From NCBI GenBank assembly GCA_009786775.1, contig WQRL01000033.1, positions 1 through 10,678 of the forward strand: a stretch of 10,678 nt of DNA, in the 5' to 3' direction. Origin of the DNA: Oscillospiraceae bacterium. GTDB taxonomy: Bacteria; Bacillota; Clostridia; Oscillospirales; Oscillospiraceae. The translations under genes and the position numbers were made by a program. Shown here one piece after another: positions 2,634-8,338 of this stretch; positions within the stretch are counted from its first letter, which is position 1; every line of letters begins with the position of its first letter. The notes below the pieces were generated by a model. The model had not been told where the DNA came from. It was given only the letters and a program-made list of their open reading frames with translations, and searched no databases.

Positions 2634-3336
2634 AACCTATAAACAGATTAACAACCCAATAAATCAAGGGCACAACTACAACCGCCGGCAATAAATCCGC
2701 CACTTTGATTTTTGTGACCCCAATCATATTGAATCCCAGCGCCACAATGATTAAAGAACCCGCCGAAGTGATTTCTGCAATCAAAGAATAACTATCCAGC
2801 AAAGGCCGCAAAAGGTGCGCCAGCAGCACCAGCGCCCCCTGATAAACAAACACAGCCCCCGCCGAAAACAAAACCCCAAACCCTAAACTCACAGTGAGGA
2901 AAATCGCAGAAATAAGGTCAATCGCCGACTTGGTAAAAATAATTGAATGATCTCCGGTAAGGCCGGAATTAATTGAGCCCACAATCGCCATTGCGCCAAC
3001 GCAAAAAAGCAAGGAACTGGTGACAAATCCTTGCGCGATAGAAGGGGCTCCGTCGGCCTGCCCTTTAGAAAACTTTTTTTCGATAAAAGCCCCTAGGGTG
3101 TTGAGCCTGTCATCTACCCTAATAGCCGTCCCCGCAGCCGCCCCTAGTGCGACTGCCACGACCAGTATTATAGGGTTCTCTCCCTGTAGGGCCCCCGAAA
3201 TGCCGATGTAGAGCACCACGAGCCCCATGCCCGTCATTATTGCCTTAGTAAAACGCTCAGGGACTCCTTTTTTCAAAAGAAGCCCCAGCGCCCCGCCGGC
3301 CAAAATAGCTATTGTATTGACAACTACGCTTAACAT
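2632..3336 (-). CDS. DUF554 family membrane protein (YdfK/YqgA-like)
   Basis: A 234-residue very hydrophobic protein, a usual length for DUF554. It shows the family features: an N-terminal MLSVVVNTIAILAGGALGLL segment, a basic KKGVPERF turn, the GMGLVVLYIGISGAL helix, and the core FVTSSLLFCVGAMAIVGSIN (residues 104-123) followed by GD and a KSAIDLISAI helix. About seven to eight transmembrane segments are visible. The biochemical role of this family is unknown. It starts 15 bp after the stop of the SLH-protease gene on the same strand, with GAAGG just upstream of the ATG, so the two are probably co-transcribed. Whether it takes part in surface-protein quality control is inference from position only. 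Confidence 0.85.
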   Translation of the reverse strand: MLSVVVNTIAILAGGALGLLLKKGVPERFTKAIMTGMGLVVLYIGISGALQGENPIILVVAVALGAAAGTAIRVDDRLNTLGAFIEKKFSKGQADGAPSIAQGFVTSSLLFCVGAMAIVGSINSGLTGDHSIIFTKSAIDLISAIFLTVSLGFGVLFSAGAVFVYQGALVLLAHLLRPLLDSYSLIAEITSAGSLIIVALGFNMIGVTKIKVADLLPAVVVVPLIYWVVNLFIG

Positions 3337-3351
3337 GTACCTTCAACCCCG

Positions 3352-4923
3352 TTATGACACATTTACCGTGATAACCTCAACCCCGTCGATGACATCTGGC
3401 CCAAAGGACAAGATGACATCATGCCATGGGTTATAAAATCTCATGAGCAAGTTGCCGCTGACAATCATATCGCCCATCCGCTCAAATAAATTCTGCTCAA
3501 CCAAGTCTATGTATTCCTCAATGACATCCTCCACAGGACGGGGCAAGTCCTCCACCCTGTAAGAAAAAGACCTTCCGCCTTGCCCTGGGCCCGTATTCCA
3601 CGGCCTAACGCCAAAATGAGCACCAAAATCAGGAGCTGGGAAAAAATCTTCGAAGAAAGCCACATCGACTATAAGCGAATCAAAGGAATCATAACTCTCT
3701 GCACTAAGTTCCATAAAAAGCTCAATTGGCACAGCTAAGTTTATGTTCTGAGCGCCAATCATAGTGGCGGTGGTGACACCCACAGCCCGTCCGTAAGCAT
3801 CGATAAGGGCTCCGCCGCTGCTGCCTGTGGAGATTGCTGCATCAAGCTGGATGAAAGTCATGCCGTCTACCTCGCGCAGTGCCTGGGAAACAATCCCTCT
3901 TGAGAACGAAGCCTGCAAGCCAAGCGGGCTGCCGAGGGCAAATACAGTAGCGCCGGTGCGCGGAGCTGTATCAGAGATTTCAAGATATGGGAAGCCATTA
4001 CCTGGAATTTGAATAAGCGCGGTGTCGTTCCGGCGGTTGACATCAAACAGGCCGGAGGAATAGAGAACTTCGCCATCATACAAAGTGACGCGCAGGGCGT
4101 GGGCCCCCACAACGACATGCTGGTTTGTCAAAGCCATACCCGACTCAGAGATGAAAAACCCGCTGCCTGTCTTGATAACCTCAGCCTCAGCGTCCAGCAC
4201 CTCTATGAAAAACACGGCAGGGGAGACCTTTTCGTACACCTGTTCTGCCGTAAGCGGGACATCAAGTGTCATAGGAATGCGCAACTCGGCATCAATCATT
4301 CTTGCCACGATAGTAGCCGCCTCTGCGCGGGTCATAGTTCTACCCGGAAAAAACGTGCCCTCTGCATCTGAGCCAATCAGGACACCCGCCCTGTAAAGCA
4401 TGTACACAGACTGTCCATAGCTAAACCGTTCCATAACGTCGGGAATGCCCCCGTCAGAAATTCGGTTAATAGGGGTCAGAGCCTCATCAGGCAAAGCGCC
4501 CGCCATTATCACGGCGAAATCAGATCTGGTTATGTATGCGTTGAAATTGCGGAAGGCTCTCACAGGTATGCCGTTTCTGCGGGCGTAGTCCACATACGGT
4601 GCATACCAAGTAGTTCCTCCAGAAAAAGCATCTGAGCCGGTGTGGAACAACCTGTGAATTGTTGAGGCAATCCTGAATGTTTCGGCTATAGTGAGCCTGC
4701 CGTGGGGCTCAAAAACCCCTTCAGCCCTCCCAATCATTATGCCGTGCTCGTAGGCATCGCGCACTCCGTCATGAAACCAGGCACTTGACGGTACATCGGC
4801 AAAGCTGTTATCATAGACTCTAATCCGTTCAAAATTTGAAAAGCTCGCTGCCCCAAGTGCAGGTACAGCAAGCGCCAGTGCAAGGCATAGTGCCAAAATC
4901 AACGCTACAGATTTATTTCTCAT
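3352..4923 (-). CDS. Exported SLH-domain HtrA-like serine protease
   Basis: A 523-residue protein. Residues 1-25 are a Sec signal peptide (K4, hydrophobic core, cleavage near PALGA-A). Three SLH repeats follow at about 38-92, 105-145 and 155-212; the third has the classic ending FFPGRTMTRAEAATIVARMI. They should anchor the protein to secondary cell-wall polymer. Residues 228-402 are a trypsin-like HtrA/DegP domain with H269 in TNQHVV, D300 in RRNDTALI and S369 in GSSGG, so the catalytic triad is complete. The usual GN-SGG is GSSGG here. The remaining about 118 residues show no PDZ domain that I can recognise. The likely role is proteolysis or quality control of exported proteins at the wall. 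It is divergent from the S-layer gene, a plausible client, and is followed by the DUF554 gene. A GAGAGG site lies about 12 bases before the ATG. Confidence 0.9.
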   Translation of the reverse strand: MRNKSVALILALCLALALAVPALGAASFSNFERIRVYDNSFADVPSSAWFHDGVRDAYEHGIMIGRAEGVFEPHGRLTIAETFRIASTIHRLFHTGSDAFSGGTTWYAPYVDYARRNGIPVRAFRNFNAYITRSDFAVIMAGALPDEALTPINRISDGGIPDVMERFSYGQSVYMLYRAGVLIGSDAEGTFFPGRTMTRAEAATIVARMIDAELRIPMTLDVPLTAEQVYEKVSPAVFFIEVLDAEAEVIKTGSGFFISESGMALTNQHVVVGAHALRVTLYDGEVLYSSGLFDVNRRNDTALIQIPGNGFPYLEISDTAPRTGATVFALGSPLGLQASFSRGIVSQALREVDGMTFIQLDAAISTGSSGGALIDAYGRAVGVTTATMIGAQNINLAVPIELFMELSAESYDSFDSLIVDVAFFEDFFPAPDFGAHFGVRPWNTGPGQGGRSFSYRVEDLPRPVEDVIEEYIDLVEQNLFERMGDMIVSGNLLMRFYNPWHDVILSFGPDVIDGVEVITVNVS

Positions 4924-4987: not shown

Positions 4988-5018
4988 AAAACACAACCGC
5001 CAAATTGTTTTTCGGCGG
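4988..5018 (-). terminator. Terminator-like hairpin read on the minus strand
   Basis: On the minus strand CCGCC (5018-5014) and GGCGG (5001-4997) form a 5-bp stem around a 12-base loop, followed by TTGTGTTTT. It lies downstream, in the minus direction, of the long inverted repeat and could end a short RNA. The stem is short, so confidence is low. Confidence 0.3.
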
Positions 5019-5047
5019 ATAGGCTGGCGAAACTCGGAGTTATACTT

Positions 5048-5236
5048 CCGTCAGGCATCTAAAACCATCCGTCGAACACGGGCAAGTGCTCTGTGAAAAA
5101 GTGGAGCGGCCTCCGTCAGTCACGTCTACCCTGGTGGAAATTTGAAGCCCATGCTAAACTTGTGTTCCAGGACTGCGGCCGCCCCACTTCCCCACAGAGC
5201 ACCCGCCCGTGTCCGACTGGCCCGATTCTACTGGCG
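5048..5236 (-). ncRNA. Candidate structured RNA: long wobble-paired inverted repeat
   Basis: Bases 5073-5111 and 5177-5215 are inverted copies, with 32 of 39 positions identical. All seven differences are A in the left arm against G in the reverse complement of the right arm. In a minus-strand RNA each becomes a G-U pair, giving a continuous 39-bp helix; in a plus-strand RNA they would be A-C mismatches. Pairing continues outward with gaps (about 5048-5072 with 5216-5236). The 65-base apical part can form a further stem, CCTGG with CCAGG. A weak terminator-like hairpin follows at 4997-5018. No clear minus-strand promoter was found between 5236 and 5300. The alternatives are a palindromic mobile element or a leader of the protease mRNA. 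I cannot match it to a known RNA family. Confidence 0.4.
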
Positions 5237-5288
5237 TGTTAAGTGTAACATTTTATGTTTCAGTAATATTACATTACAGGAAATATTA

Positions 5289-5318
5289 TTGACGTTACCC
5301 TTCCCCCTGTGCTATCAT
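5289..5318 (+). promoter_or_regulatory. Promoter of the putative S-layer gene
   Basis: A -35 TTGACG (5289-5294), an 18-base spacer and a -10 TATCAT (5313-5318). The upstream flank is AT-rich with the perfect palindrome GTAATATTAC (5263-5272), which could be an UP-like element or a regulator site. The predicted transcript starts near 5325. Confidence 0.65.
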
Positions 5319-5391: not shown

Positions 5392-8214
5392 ATGAGAACA
5401 CTCAAAAAATCCTTAGCTGTGTTACTTGTACTCGTCATGGCACTCACAATGGTTCCGTTTGCAGGTGCAAACCAATTCGCAACCATTGCTGATTTCCCTG
5501 ATGCAGCTGACGTAACACAGGAGCGCGACATCCTAATGGCGCTAGACGTGCTTGCAGCAGTCAACGTCCTTCGCGGCGAAGACGGTCTGATAGCACCACA
5601 ACGCACACTAAACCGTGCAGAAGCAGCAACAGTAGTTGCACGCGTACTTCTCGGCCCAATCACAGCTGACACACTTCCTGCAAGCCAAACAGGCTTCCGC
5701 GATGTTGACGGCGTAAGCGGTCTAGGATTCGCATCAGGCGCGATTGGCTACCTCCATGAGCGTGGCATCGTAATCGGTATTGGCGACAACCTGTTCGATC
5801 CATTTGCATCTGTAACAGGCGCAGAAATCGCAACAATGTTCCTTCGCGCAGTTGGCTTCGGCGTTAACGGCGAATACACAGGCCCAAGATGGCAAACAAA
5901 TGCAGTTGTAGACGGCATGAGCTGGCGTATCCTTCAAGGTGATGCCGACTTCACAGCTCCTGCAACTCGTGAAGAAATATTCTTCTATGCATTCAATGCA
6001 ATGAATGTTAGAGGTAGCGATGTTGGTCTACGCTTCGTAAACTGGAGTGCTGACAGACAAGCTTATGTACCTGTATTGCTTCAAGGTATCGGCGCTGGTG
6101 ACGGCGAACGCCTCGAAACAATCTTCAGAAGAGTATTTAACCCATCACCGATTAACCTCCACTGGAATCTGACACATGACCAATTCGGCCGTCCGGCTGA
6201 CAGATTCACACTACGTGGTATCGAAATCGGCACATATGCACAAGACGCAAGACTAAGATACACAGCACACGTAGGCCGTGGCGCAATTGATGCAGATCTC
6301 AACGTTCTTAACATTGGCCAAACCAACGTGAATGTTAACAATCAAATTCTTGGAACCAACTGGGGTGTTGATCTCTTCGTTAACGGTTCACAGCAGTTCA
6401 TCAACAGAAACAGAACAACTGCTGCGGCAAATGATGATCCTTTCACATTCCTTAACAATGCTGACTGGGGTAACCCTGGTCTATTGTCAGCCACAAGCAA
6501 CACTCTTATTAACCCAACTCGTGCAAACGTTGCAGCATTCATCGAAGCACATGTCGGTAACGGCGTAGAAGTTGAAGTATTCGTTGACGATGCTACAAAC
6601 AACATCATCGCTGTAACAGTTATCAGAACTGACATTTCACGCATGACAGCTATTTCTGGCCAAACTCGCACAGTGACAACCAGAACTCCAGACTTCGGTG
6701 GCGAAACCACTCCTGCACCTGGTATCCGCACAGCTACATTTGGCTTTGCTGATGCAATTGATGTTGGCGTTCTTAACCCCAACCATGCAGAAGTAGCAGC
6801 ACTTGCAATCAATGACTTCCTTCTTGTCAGACCTGTATGGGATGGCGGCGCGTTCATCGTGGGCGAAGTTGCGGCTCCTGAGTCAGTAACAGCGATCCAC
6901 AACGCAGGTATCTTCATGGTTAACTTCGGTGGCAACACTGGTACAATCACAGTTGGCGGTGAAGTATACAGAAGAGCAAGAGTCCTTTCCGCAGGCGCAC
7001 AAGCTCTCAGACATCCTACCGTAGTTAACACAGAAGCAACACTTCTCCTTGACGAATTCGGATTCGTTGTACACGCTGACGGCGCAGCACAAGGCAACCG
7101 TAATGTTATAATTGTTAACTCAGGTAATAACAACACTACCCCGCCTAGCCAAGGTGCTCTTCTACAAACACTTACAAACAACCAACTCAGGAACTTTGTA
7201 AGAGGTTTCTACACTGATGGTACTGCAGTAGACGTAACACTACATTTAGATCAAGCTGTTCCTGGTTTTGATCCTAGTGTTCCAATTGGACGTGGCGCCA
7301 TTGCTGTCATTGTTCAAGAGGGCGCAGCAGCTAATGTTCAATCTGCGACTCCTGCTGTTGGTCCAAATGTAAATAATGCAAGAGTTTCAACACTTGCACT
7401 GAACACAACCGGTACTACAACACCTAGCTCAATTTCACTAGTCAATGTTTCTACTGACAGAGTAACAGCAGGTCAAACAGCTGTAAGAACAGATGTAGGA
7501 ACATTCGAAATCGACAATACAGGTAGAGTATTCTACATCAATCCTGCTAATGGCGCGGTTACTGTGAGAAACAGAGATCACACAATCCAATCGGATGCCA
7601 TTGAAGCTATCATTTCAACAAACGCTGCTGGCGCATCAACCGTAATTGCTTTCGTAGTTCACGGTGCTGTAATGGGTGACCTAAACCGCGACACACTCTT
7701 CTTCGTAGAAGCTGTAGCACGCGGCTGGGACGAAATTGCTGGTGTTGGCTACAACATGTTCTGGACAACTAACGCAGACGGCGTGCGCGAACTCAGAGCA
7801 CTTTCAGGCGTAACCGGTACTGACGGTCTTCCAGAAGATGGCGCAGGTTTCAGAGCAGCAACAATTGATGCTCAAGGTAGACTTGTAACAACAGGAATCC
7901 TTGATGACGAACTAGGTTCAAACGTAGGCATAGTTACAATGGGTAATATAGCAACTGTCAACGGCCTTGCAAACACCATTGTTGTCAGCTCCGCAAGACC
8001 TAGCCAAATTGTTGGTGGACTTAACGTAGATTCTCACATTGCAGCAGTTCCAAATGGTGTCCTGATTGTTAACGCTGTAACAAGCGCAACAATGACACGC
8101 ACAGCGTTCTTTGAGCAACTTAATGACGGCCGCATTGCTGCGGATCGCCTCGTATCAGTTCTCATAGACGTAGCTGCAACAGGCTCACCAGTAGTTGCAA
8201 TCTTCCTGCACTAG
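5392..8214 (+). CDS. Putative S-layer protein with N-terminal SLH domains, 940 aa
   Basis: It has a signal peptide (MRTLKKSLAV, hydrophobic core, cleavage near FAGA-NQ at residue 26). SLH repeats are at about 34-87 (RTLNRAEAATVVARVLLG), 102-155 and a weaker one at 160-205. The remaining about 730 residues are rich in Val, Asn, Thr, Ala and Gly with beta-type alternation and no enzymatic motif. A module ending in patterns such as VEVEVFVDDATNNIIAVTVI (from residue 392) recurs near residues 729-757 and at the C terminus. Strong promoter, 5' stem-loop, consensus ribosome binding site, strong terminator and size all fit an abundant surface-layer protein held to the wall by SLH repeats. The mature part contains no lysine and no cysteine, which is unusual. 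A longer in-frame TTG start at 5365 would swallow the ribosome binding site and is rejected. It could also be a large surface adhesin rather than the main S-layer subunit. Confidence 0.85.
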   Translation: MRTLKKSLAVLLVLVMALTMVPFAGANQFATIADFPDAADVTQERDILMALDVLAAVNVLRGEDGLIAPQRTLNRAEAATVVARVLLGPITADTLPASQTGFRDVDGVSGLGFASGAIGYLHERGIVIGIGDNLFDPFASVTGAEIATMFLRAVGFGVNGEYTGPRWQTNAVVDGMSWRILQGDADFTAPATREEIFFYAFNAMNVRGSDVGLRFVNWSADRQAYVPVLLQGIGAGDGERLETIFRRVFNPSPINLHWNLTHDQFGRPADRFTLRGIEIGTYAQDARLRYTAHVGRGAIDADLNVLNIGQTNVNVNNQILGTNWGVDLFVNGSQQFINRNRTTAAANDDPFTFLNNADWGNPGLLSATSNTLINPTRANVAAFIEAHVGNGVEVEVFVDDATNNIIAVTVIRTDISRMTAISGQTRTVTTRTPDFGGETTPAPGIRTATFGFADAIDVGVLNPNHAEVAALAINDFLLVRPVWDGGAFIVGEVAAPESVTAIHNAGIFMVNFGGNTGTITVGGEVYRRARVLSAGAQALRHPTVVNTEATLLLDEFGFVVHADGAAQGNRNVIIVNSGNNNTTPPSQGALLQTLTNNQLRNFVRGFYTDGTAVDVTLHLDQAVPGFDPSVPIGRGAIAVIVQEGAAANVQSATPAVGPNVNNARVSTLALNTTGTTTPSSISLVNVSTDRVTAGQTAVRTDVGTFEIDNTGRVFYINPANGAVTVRNRDHTIQSDAIEAIISTNAAGASTVIAFVVHGAVMGDLNRDTLFFVEAVARGWDEIAGVGYNMFWTTNADGVRELRALSGVTGTDGLPEDGAGFRAATIDAQGRLVTTGILDDELGSNVGIVTMGNIATVNGLANTIVVSSARPSQIVGGLNVDSHIAAVPNGVLIVNAVTSATMTRTAFFEQLNDGRIAADRLVSVLIDVAATGSPVVAIFLH

Positions 8215-8250
8215 GCTACACTCTAGTCTAACGCACAACTAAACGCAATC

Positions 8251-8280
8251 AAACTCCCCTGGCTTCGGCCAGGGGAGTTT
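8251..8280 (+). terminator. Strong terminator hairpin after the S-layer gene
   Basis: A perfect 13-bp stem, AAACTCCCCTGGC (8251-8263) with GCCAGGGGAGTTT (8268-8280), around a TTCG tetraloop. The T residues are within the stem and GTGTATGTT follows. It is 37 bases after the stop codon and isolates the S-layer gene from the next SLH gene, which has its own promoter. Confidence 0.85.
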
Positions 8281-8338
8281 GTGTATGTTAAGTGTTGTAA
8301 ACGCTGTCTGTGCTAAGTAGGTTTGCGTTATATAGCAG

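Follow-up and report, generated by a model that had tools for sequence, protein, structure and literature searches.

Small folded repeats, dispersed in many copies, are familiar from several bacteria. As described in the parts of the sources drawn on here, bcr1 of the Bacillus cereus group is an intergenic MITE-like repeat of about 150-170 bp with a predicted common structure, often lying in untranslated regions (PMC2267715), and bcr10 and bcr18 are held to be RNA elements (PMC3446304). The BOX, RUP and SPRITE sequences of pneumococci are folded, dispersed and small, and IS-like ends occur in some of them; REP/BIME repeats are folded and have transcripts that affect mRNA in cis (both as given in the passages cited of PMC3049150). 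The same cis effect is described for ERIC and NEMIS/Correia repeats, being orientation-dependent for ERIC (in the portion cited of PMC2229807). Among full transposable elements the IS66-family members ISPpa5a and ISPpa7 generate 8-bp target duplications (again in the portion cited, PMC3281130). The folded RNA of bacterial MITEs is often drawn, and whether selection acts on the fold is usually left open.

The element in the window

The window, meaning the whole 10,678-nt stretch of DNA analysed here, contains a long inverted repeat which the original prediction had placed between a wall protease gene and an S-layer gene, and both of these were found, one on either side (Table 1). Arms of 39 bases with seven differences had been described; they extend to 41 bases, 5071-5111 and the reverse complement of 5177-5217, with exactly seven differences (5075, 5084, 5085, 5096, 5097, 5098 and 5105), the left arm having A and the right arm G at every one of them. 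All seven are G-U pairs on the minus strand, in keeping with the claim that they are wobbles on that strand only. When the rod (5061-5228) is taken from a structure-fitted alignment the window copy has eight non-Watson-Crick pairs, all of them G-U and none A-C. An inverted-repeat search delimited arms of 47 nt, 81% complementary. The minus-strand fold of 5020-5250, which reaches outward beyond the main arms, has -114 kcal/mol (z -8.3), and that of the plus strand -93.6 kcal/mol (z -5.6); with either strand, none of 200 shuffles was as good. The terminal inverted repeats of the window copy are GTTATACTT/GTTACACTT.

Table 1. Features of the element and its neighbours, in window coordinates; the end motif GTTACASTTYAC was picked after the IS66 ends and the copies had been seen, and the terminal-repeat scores are no independent test
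Feature	Position	Strand	Basis or remark
Full element, ~211 bp	5039..5249	-	ends read from sequence; terminal inverted repeats GTTATACTTCC.. / GTTACACTTAAC..
Core rod RNA	5061..5228	-	covariance model R1 match, 183.9 bits
RNA 5' arm, G-rich	5171..5217	-	inverted-repeat search, fold, alignment
RNA 3' arm	5071..5117	-	inverted-repeat search, alignment; holds all 7 G-U mismatches of the 41-base arms
Conserved central motif 1	5156..5173	-	minus strand GTCCTGGAACACAAGTTT here; 14 of 18 bases invariant in 37 copies
Conserved central motif 2	5114..5129	-	minus strand GTAGACGTGACTGACG; 14 of 16 bases invariant in 37 copies
5' terminal repeat GTTACACTTAAC	5238..5249	-	11/12 to end motif GTTACASTTYAC
Other terminal repeat GTTATACTTCCG	5039..5050	+	9/12 to end motif GTTACASTTYAC
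Neighbour gene, SLH + trypsin-like protease	3352..4923	-	begins 115 bp past the element's RNA 3' end
Neighbour gene, SLH-domain (S-layer type) protein, divergent	5392..8214	+	

That the repeat matches no known RNA agrees with an Rfam search, which gives the rod no family. The loose likeness to 6S RNA that had been suggested did not survive: the rod has no match to RF00013, and the true 6S RNA of the genome lies elsewhere (G000:C141:4115-4313, 88.2 bits). A mir-92 type match at 1227-1298 and other weak Rfam matches lie outside the rod and below the gathering scores and are put down to chance; 1227-1298 is itself a second strong hairpin with, beyond itself, one 44-base partial match in its own genome. 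Other features of the surroundings are a terminator-like hairpin on the minus strand at 4997-5018, between the element and the protease gene (0.5 expected by chance), a sigma-70-like site TTGACG-18-TATCAT at 5289-5318, upstream of the S-layer-type gene (0.6 expected by chance) and within a flank conserved in the sibling genome G016, and an inverted repeat with 26-nt arms and a 4-nt gap at 8238-8293, just past the S-layer-type gene and probably its terminator.

Copies, relatives and ends

Its own genome (G000: 2.06 Mb in 345 contigs, the assembly being 69% complete) has roughly 80 to 90 copies of this small mobile DNA element, the one in the window among them. BLAST of this genome yielded at least 66 matches, arm-only ones included, among the best 40 of 101 candidates scored, and covariance model R1, built from an alignment of 37 copies (A1), yielded at least 138 when 150 of 773 candidates were scored, a figure that counts reverse-strand echoes. 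From 77 sources in the genome there were 159 matches past 1e-8, and the best 82 non-overlapping ones were taken as sense; their non-overlap was verified, three are partial, and some weaker R1 matches fall outside the set. All 68 further rows of alignment A2 are opposite-strand echoes of the 82, and the last 9 of the 159 look by eye like echoes too; L019 and L020 were excluded as letter-for-letter duplicates of other copies. The search for further copies that had been proposed as a check thus succeeded, and the notion of a single, locus-specific structured RNA has to be given up. With about 170-210 bp, no transposase gene and this number of copies the element has the dimensions of a MITE. The copies have diverged (median nearest-neighbour distance 0.128-0.139) with pairing still kept, and there is a second subfamily of rods in the genome (L117, L118) with different arms and the same centre.

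How widely is the rod distributed? Model R2, with 150 candidates scored per genome, matched in 6 of 19 genomes of the genus, the window's own included, and in 13 not at all, the counts, echoes included, being 125 in G000, 147 in G001, 75 in G010, 16 in G004, 2 in G005 and 1 in G013. Relatives are present, then, in 5 of 18 congeners. Two of these, G001 and G010, have them in large numbers; the arms there are quite different, but the rod is retained and the centre is related. The arm sequence of G000 is unrelated to those of G001 and G010, that of G004 is shared with G001, and AGAGGGTATCC near the ends is common to G001 and G010. Across the families the centre has ACACAARTTTTG...CAAGTTT... in common, with variants: ACACAARTTT of motif 1 occurs in most rows from other species, and GTAGACGTG of motif 2 is in the G004 copy too and partly in G001 and G010. 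Among 300 genomes of the family, from 106 genera and with 9 candidates scored per genome, only two matched, G000 and G004, both of genus g1. Plasmids and phages gave no rod match at E 1e-5, and viral contigs none to two exact 20-mers of the rod. The sole pattern-scan match of 21 bases, at 6061-6081 of L046 from a Chloroflexi MAG, lies inside a coding sequence, which we take to be NifU-like, and hence is a chance match.

Evidence of movement is clearest in the sibling G001. Its elements end in GTAAC.../...GTTAC, within terminal inverted repeats GTAACTGTTCAG.../...CTGAACAGTTAC, and are flanked by 8-bp duplications: over 29 rows the two flanks agree at a mean of 5.17 of 8 positions, while mismatched flanks agree at 2.33 (z 11.8), and 16 of the 29 agree at 7 or more. 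One of these rows (the first of two in L134, 1/8) was cut by a contig end and given its neighbour's flank; outside the set are one copy without an anchor and those in L128 and L137, missed by the search expression. End-motif matches at up to two mismatches number 206 in G001, two per element, vs 0 in the control. A duplication of fixed size is a property of this one of the three species families and not of the window's own: none is recognisable at the window copy, G000 as a whole gives no signal (76 of 82 rows used, 2 cut at contig ends), and in G010, where the termini vary freely, there is no enrichment (29 copies; best z 3.3 among many offsets). Many copies with terminal repeats and target duplications had been named beforehand as the finding that would point to a mobile element instead of a lone RNA, and both have now been found, the copies in G000 and the repeats with 8-bp duplications in G001.

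The ends lead to the IS66 family. L210, an IS66-family IS in G006 (PF03050, E 2.2e-41), has ends GTAACTATTCAG/GTAACTGTTCAG and a perfect 8-bp duplication, CTTTTTCA, and its terminal bases equal the first 12 of a G001 rod (12/12). L208 in G005 has near-matching ends, GTTACTAGTCAC, and by eye a duplication of 7/8; L140 in G001 has ends GTTACTGTTCAC/GTTACAGTTCAC, an 11/11 match to rod ends, with no duplication seen. Ends and duplication size are accordingly common to the rods and to IS66-family IS of the same lineage. Of 74 flanks on each side in G000, 19 at the 5' end and 20 at the 3' end have the end motif GTTACASTTYAC at 9/12 or better, shuffle rates being 3.6% and 7.7% respectively for a motif chosen post hoc. 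IS66 transposase is near full-length in G001 and partial in G010, and was found neither in G000, an incomplete assembly, nor in G004. Five of the 19 genus genomes have a relative of the L140 transposase, and rods are present in only two of the five (G001 and G005), so co-occurrence gives no support to the link. Internal similarity of the rods to three IS66 elements of the genus is nowhere significant; since only about 11-12 terminal bases are common to IS and rod, the rods are not plain deletion derivatives. Within the same terminal repeats, L140 also has a small DUF6788-domain gene (161-625) ahead of its transposase.

The syntenic locus in G016 shares both flanks of the window element, and homology resumes at 5251, directly past the element's end; 4998-5250 bears no relation to the G016 sequence, and that genome has no match to the rod model. 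Where the rod would lie, G016 has some 390 bp of other, unrelated sequence (L198, about 2849-3235) that fold fairly strongly. From its dispersed copies, and from the IS66-like termini and 8-bp duplications of G001, the element behaves as a MITE of IS66 type.

Constraint on the arms and placement beside genes

Selection for a minus-strand RNA fold had been proposed from the one-sided wobbles of a single copy. Alignment for covariation had been suggested as a check; the aligned copies reveal covariation beyond relatedness, and the proposal is upheld by compensatory change and by an excess of G-U over A-C, both strong in G000 and G010 and weak in G001. In A1 97.8% of 1836 cells are paired, vs 39-44% with slid structures, and two-sided change affects 21 of 50 pairs vs 7.7 in shuffles; in A3, which has 31 rows from across the families, 92.2% of 1622 cells are paired and 322 cells have two-sided change vs 108 shuffled. 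The A1 and A3 structures come from the very sequences they were scored on and are to that extent favoured over slid ones; A2, A5 and A6 are model-fitted alignments, which favours pairing. When each copy in model-fitted alignments is compared with its nearest neighbour (82 copies for G000, 29 each for G010 and G001), pairing-preserving two-sided changes number 128, 147 and 11 for G000, G010 and G001, vs 24, 16 and 4 under simulated independent substitution, and broken pairs number 61, 33 and 75 vs a simulated 363, 285 and 160. The G000 count of two-sided changes depends on the set, being 163 vs 31 for 42 rod pairs in full-length copies and 128 vs 24 for 50 pairs in all 82.

One-sided changes from Watson-Crick pairs divide between G-U and A-C as 139:16 in G000, 39:6 in G010 and 27:16 in G001, where the bias is weak and one of four substitution classes is reversed (3:7). 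The excess is there in MAFFT alignments with no model fitting, at 224:15 cells in A1 and 134:29 in A3, these being counts of sequences and not of independent events. The sense strand is the more stable in 75 of 82 copies in G000, 29 of 29 in G010 and 23 of 29 in G001. At four of the window's seven wobble sites (columns 31/231, 32/230, 43/219 and 44/218 of the 82-copy alignment) G-U is present in 33, 32, 44 and 64 copies, so those four wobbles are largely inherited.

Two more mundane sources of the bias were considered for G000 and rejected. Strand-biased mutation finds no reflection in unpaired columns, where C>T is 0.117 and G>A 0.100 per site, with A>G at 0.043 vs T>C at 0.086; the corresponding counts in G010 and G001, 2-28, are too small to decide. 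Nor is the mRNA strand of the neighbours the cause: G-U exceeds A-C in every gene context (18:2, 25:1, 60:10 and 65:13, with 41:9 where no neighbour was called), so the bias belongs to the element. As judged from the alignments, the conclusion holds that the arms are kept by selection on the fold of one strand, on which G-U is tolerated and A-C avoided. Mobile element and selected RNA fold had been posed as alternatives; each part stands, the opposition between them does not, and the data show both.

Genes beside the rods were called by a longest-ORF rule with no gene finder, and the background samples of gene pairs (19, 7 and 6) are too small to carry weight. Of the 73 G000 copies for which a gene was called on the RNA's 5' side, 56 have that gene antiparallel (p 5e-6), and the 3' side is unbiased in orientation (38:39); in G001 the 5'-side gene runs antiparallel in 18 of 26 (p 0.08). 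Placement in G010 is of another kind, 17 of 29 copies lying between convergent ORFs. Inbound ORFs of 100 aa or more stop no further than 60 nt from the element's edge in 18 of 28 cases on the 5' side and 22 of 29 on the 3' side, the control being 12.5% of 401 random positions; 38 of these 40 ends lie in the interval from 18 nt short of the edge to 4 nt beyond it. The corresponding figures on the 5' side are 8/75 for G000 and 5/26 for G001, and on the 3' side 18/77 and 9/29, a modest excess (controls 11% throughout). G000 copies have TTTT a few bases past the helix; by eye G010 rods have no T run right after it. The intrinsic-terminator scan was limited to loops of 3-8 nt, which puts the rod outside its reach. 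A promoter of the element's own is unsupported, the upstream flanks in G000 being conserved for only about 10-14 nt.

Explanations and comparison with known systems

The explanation that we favour, and think probable, is a non-autonomous, MITE-like element of IS66 type whose arms are under selection for the RNA fold of one strand. An IS66-family transposase acting in trans on GTTAC/GTAAC ends would have moved it. Since the upstream flank is unconserved past about 10-14 nt, no promoter seems to travel with the element, and its minus-strand sequence would be transcribed within a longer transcript; selection would then see a rod RNA with a central junction. Because the G-U bias of G000 is present in every gene context, the benefit of the fold is placed first with the element, in its persistence or proliferation, for instance if it kept transcripts running through it stable or free of harm. 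The rods of G010 mostly lie against stop codons, in many cases those of convergent genes, and there the element probably doubles as an mRNA 3'-end structure, a use on the host's side.

Might that host use be the whole story? A domesticated 3'-end or leader element, REP-like or SPRITE-like, with mobility only as history, would suit the ORF ends at the element's edge in G010, the convergent genes there, and the G000 copies that have diverged and yet are still paired. It fits less well with the much weaker edge pattern of G000 and G001 (as controls on the 5' side, a modest excess on the 3' side) or with the antiparallel genes on the 5' side in G000, and no single host role suits all three species; we regard it as rather unlikely. 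Less likely again is that complementarity is kept by template switching between the arms of the palindrome and not by selection on RNA. The very many two-sided changes, above all in G010, whose terminal segments differ between copies and yet stay complementary, are what such switching would produce, and for it the weak 27:16 of G001 is less of a problem. It yields Watson-Crick pairs on both strands alike, however, and predicts no bias such as the 139:16 of G000 or the 39:6 of G010, against unpaired columns in G000 that are unbiased. It could act alongside selection.

Single-stranded DNA hairpins, of which attC sites and the ends of IS200/IS605 elements are precedents, could also be subject to selection on one strand, since in DNA, too, G-T is better than A-C, and a strand bias independent of gene context in G000 would be in order. 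Fixed 8-bp duplications and IS66-type ends in G001, however, indicate double-strand DDE transposition, and G-U, which abounds here (463 of 4004 cells), is more favourable in RNA than G-T is in DNA, so that we consider a DNA hairpin improbable. Hardly any room is left for a stable RNA gene, 6S-like or other, proper to the S-layer intergenic region. The strong strand-specific fold and the covariation are as such a gene would have them; 82 dispersed copies refute it as a single locus, there is no Rfam match, the true 6S lies elsewhere, and the sibling G016, which has the syntenic locus, has no match to the model.

Beyond the favoured reading of a MITE-like element under one-strand fold selection, a bolder model may be entertained as a tentative possibility. 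The spread of a non-autonomous DNA transposon would depend on a folded RNA of one strand, with the arms free to change while the rod holds and the centre (ACACAA..., ...CAAGTTT..., ...GTG...) a fixed RNA domain, perhaps protein-bound; each host species would amplify its own version of the arms, differently placed, on the promoter side in G000 and beside stop codons in G010. Three species families whose arms are unrelated, with dozens of copies to a genome, amount to a natural covariation experiment, and its answer to whether selection acts on the fold is yes; it also names the strand and draws attention to the centre as a conserved part. Should spread require the RNA, this would be a new dependency for an element moved by a transposase, and if the G010 rods are host 3'-end devices, a clear case of a host taking over a mobile repeat.

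Among the papers listed by searches of a mostly open-access literature, no description was found of the rod family or of IS66 MITEs with RNA covariation. To judge by the Rfam test alone the bcr repeats are unrelated to the rods, and neither a strand-specific wobble excess nor free divergence of arms round a fixed centre is among the features given for them in the portions cited of PMC2267715 and PMC3446304. The sequence relation to ERIC, NEMIS/Correia and REP/BIME repeats was likewise compared by Rfam only. SPRITE repeats, in the passages cited, resemble G010 rods in their enrichment at convergent 3' ends (PMC3049150); the rods differ from BOX, RUP and SPRITE in that each is one long helix whose centre is conserved and whose ends are of IS66 type, and by eye those of G010 have no T run directly behind it. 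With 6S RNA (RF00013) they have in common a rod-shaped RNA of about 160-200 nt, though there is no match. With IS66-family IS they share the 8-bp duplication, as L210 also has, and terminal bases, but have no transposase and no significant internal similarity. The class to which the window element belongs is thus familiar from bcr, BOX/RUP/SPRITE, ERIC and NEMIS; what is new is how strong and how strand-specific the constraint on the RNA is, together with the conservation of the centre.
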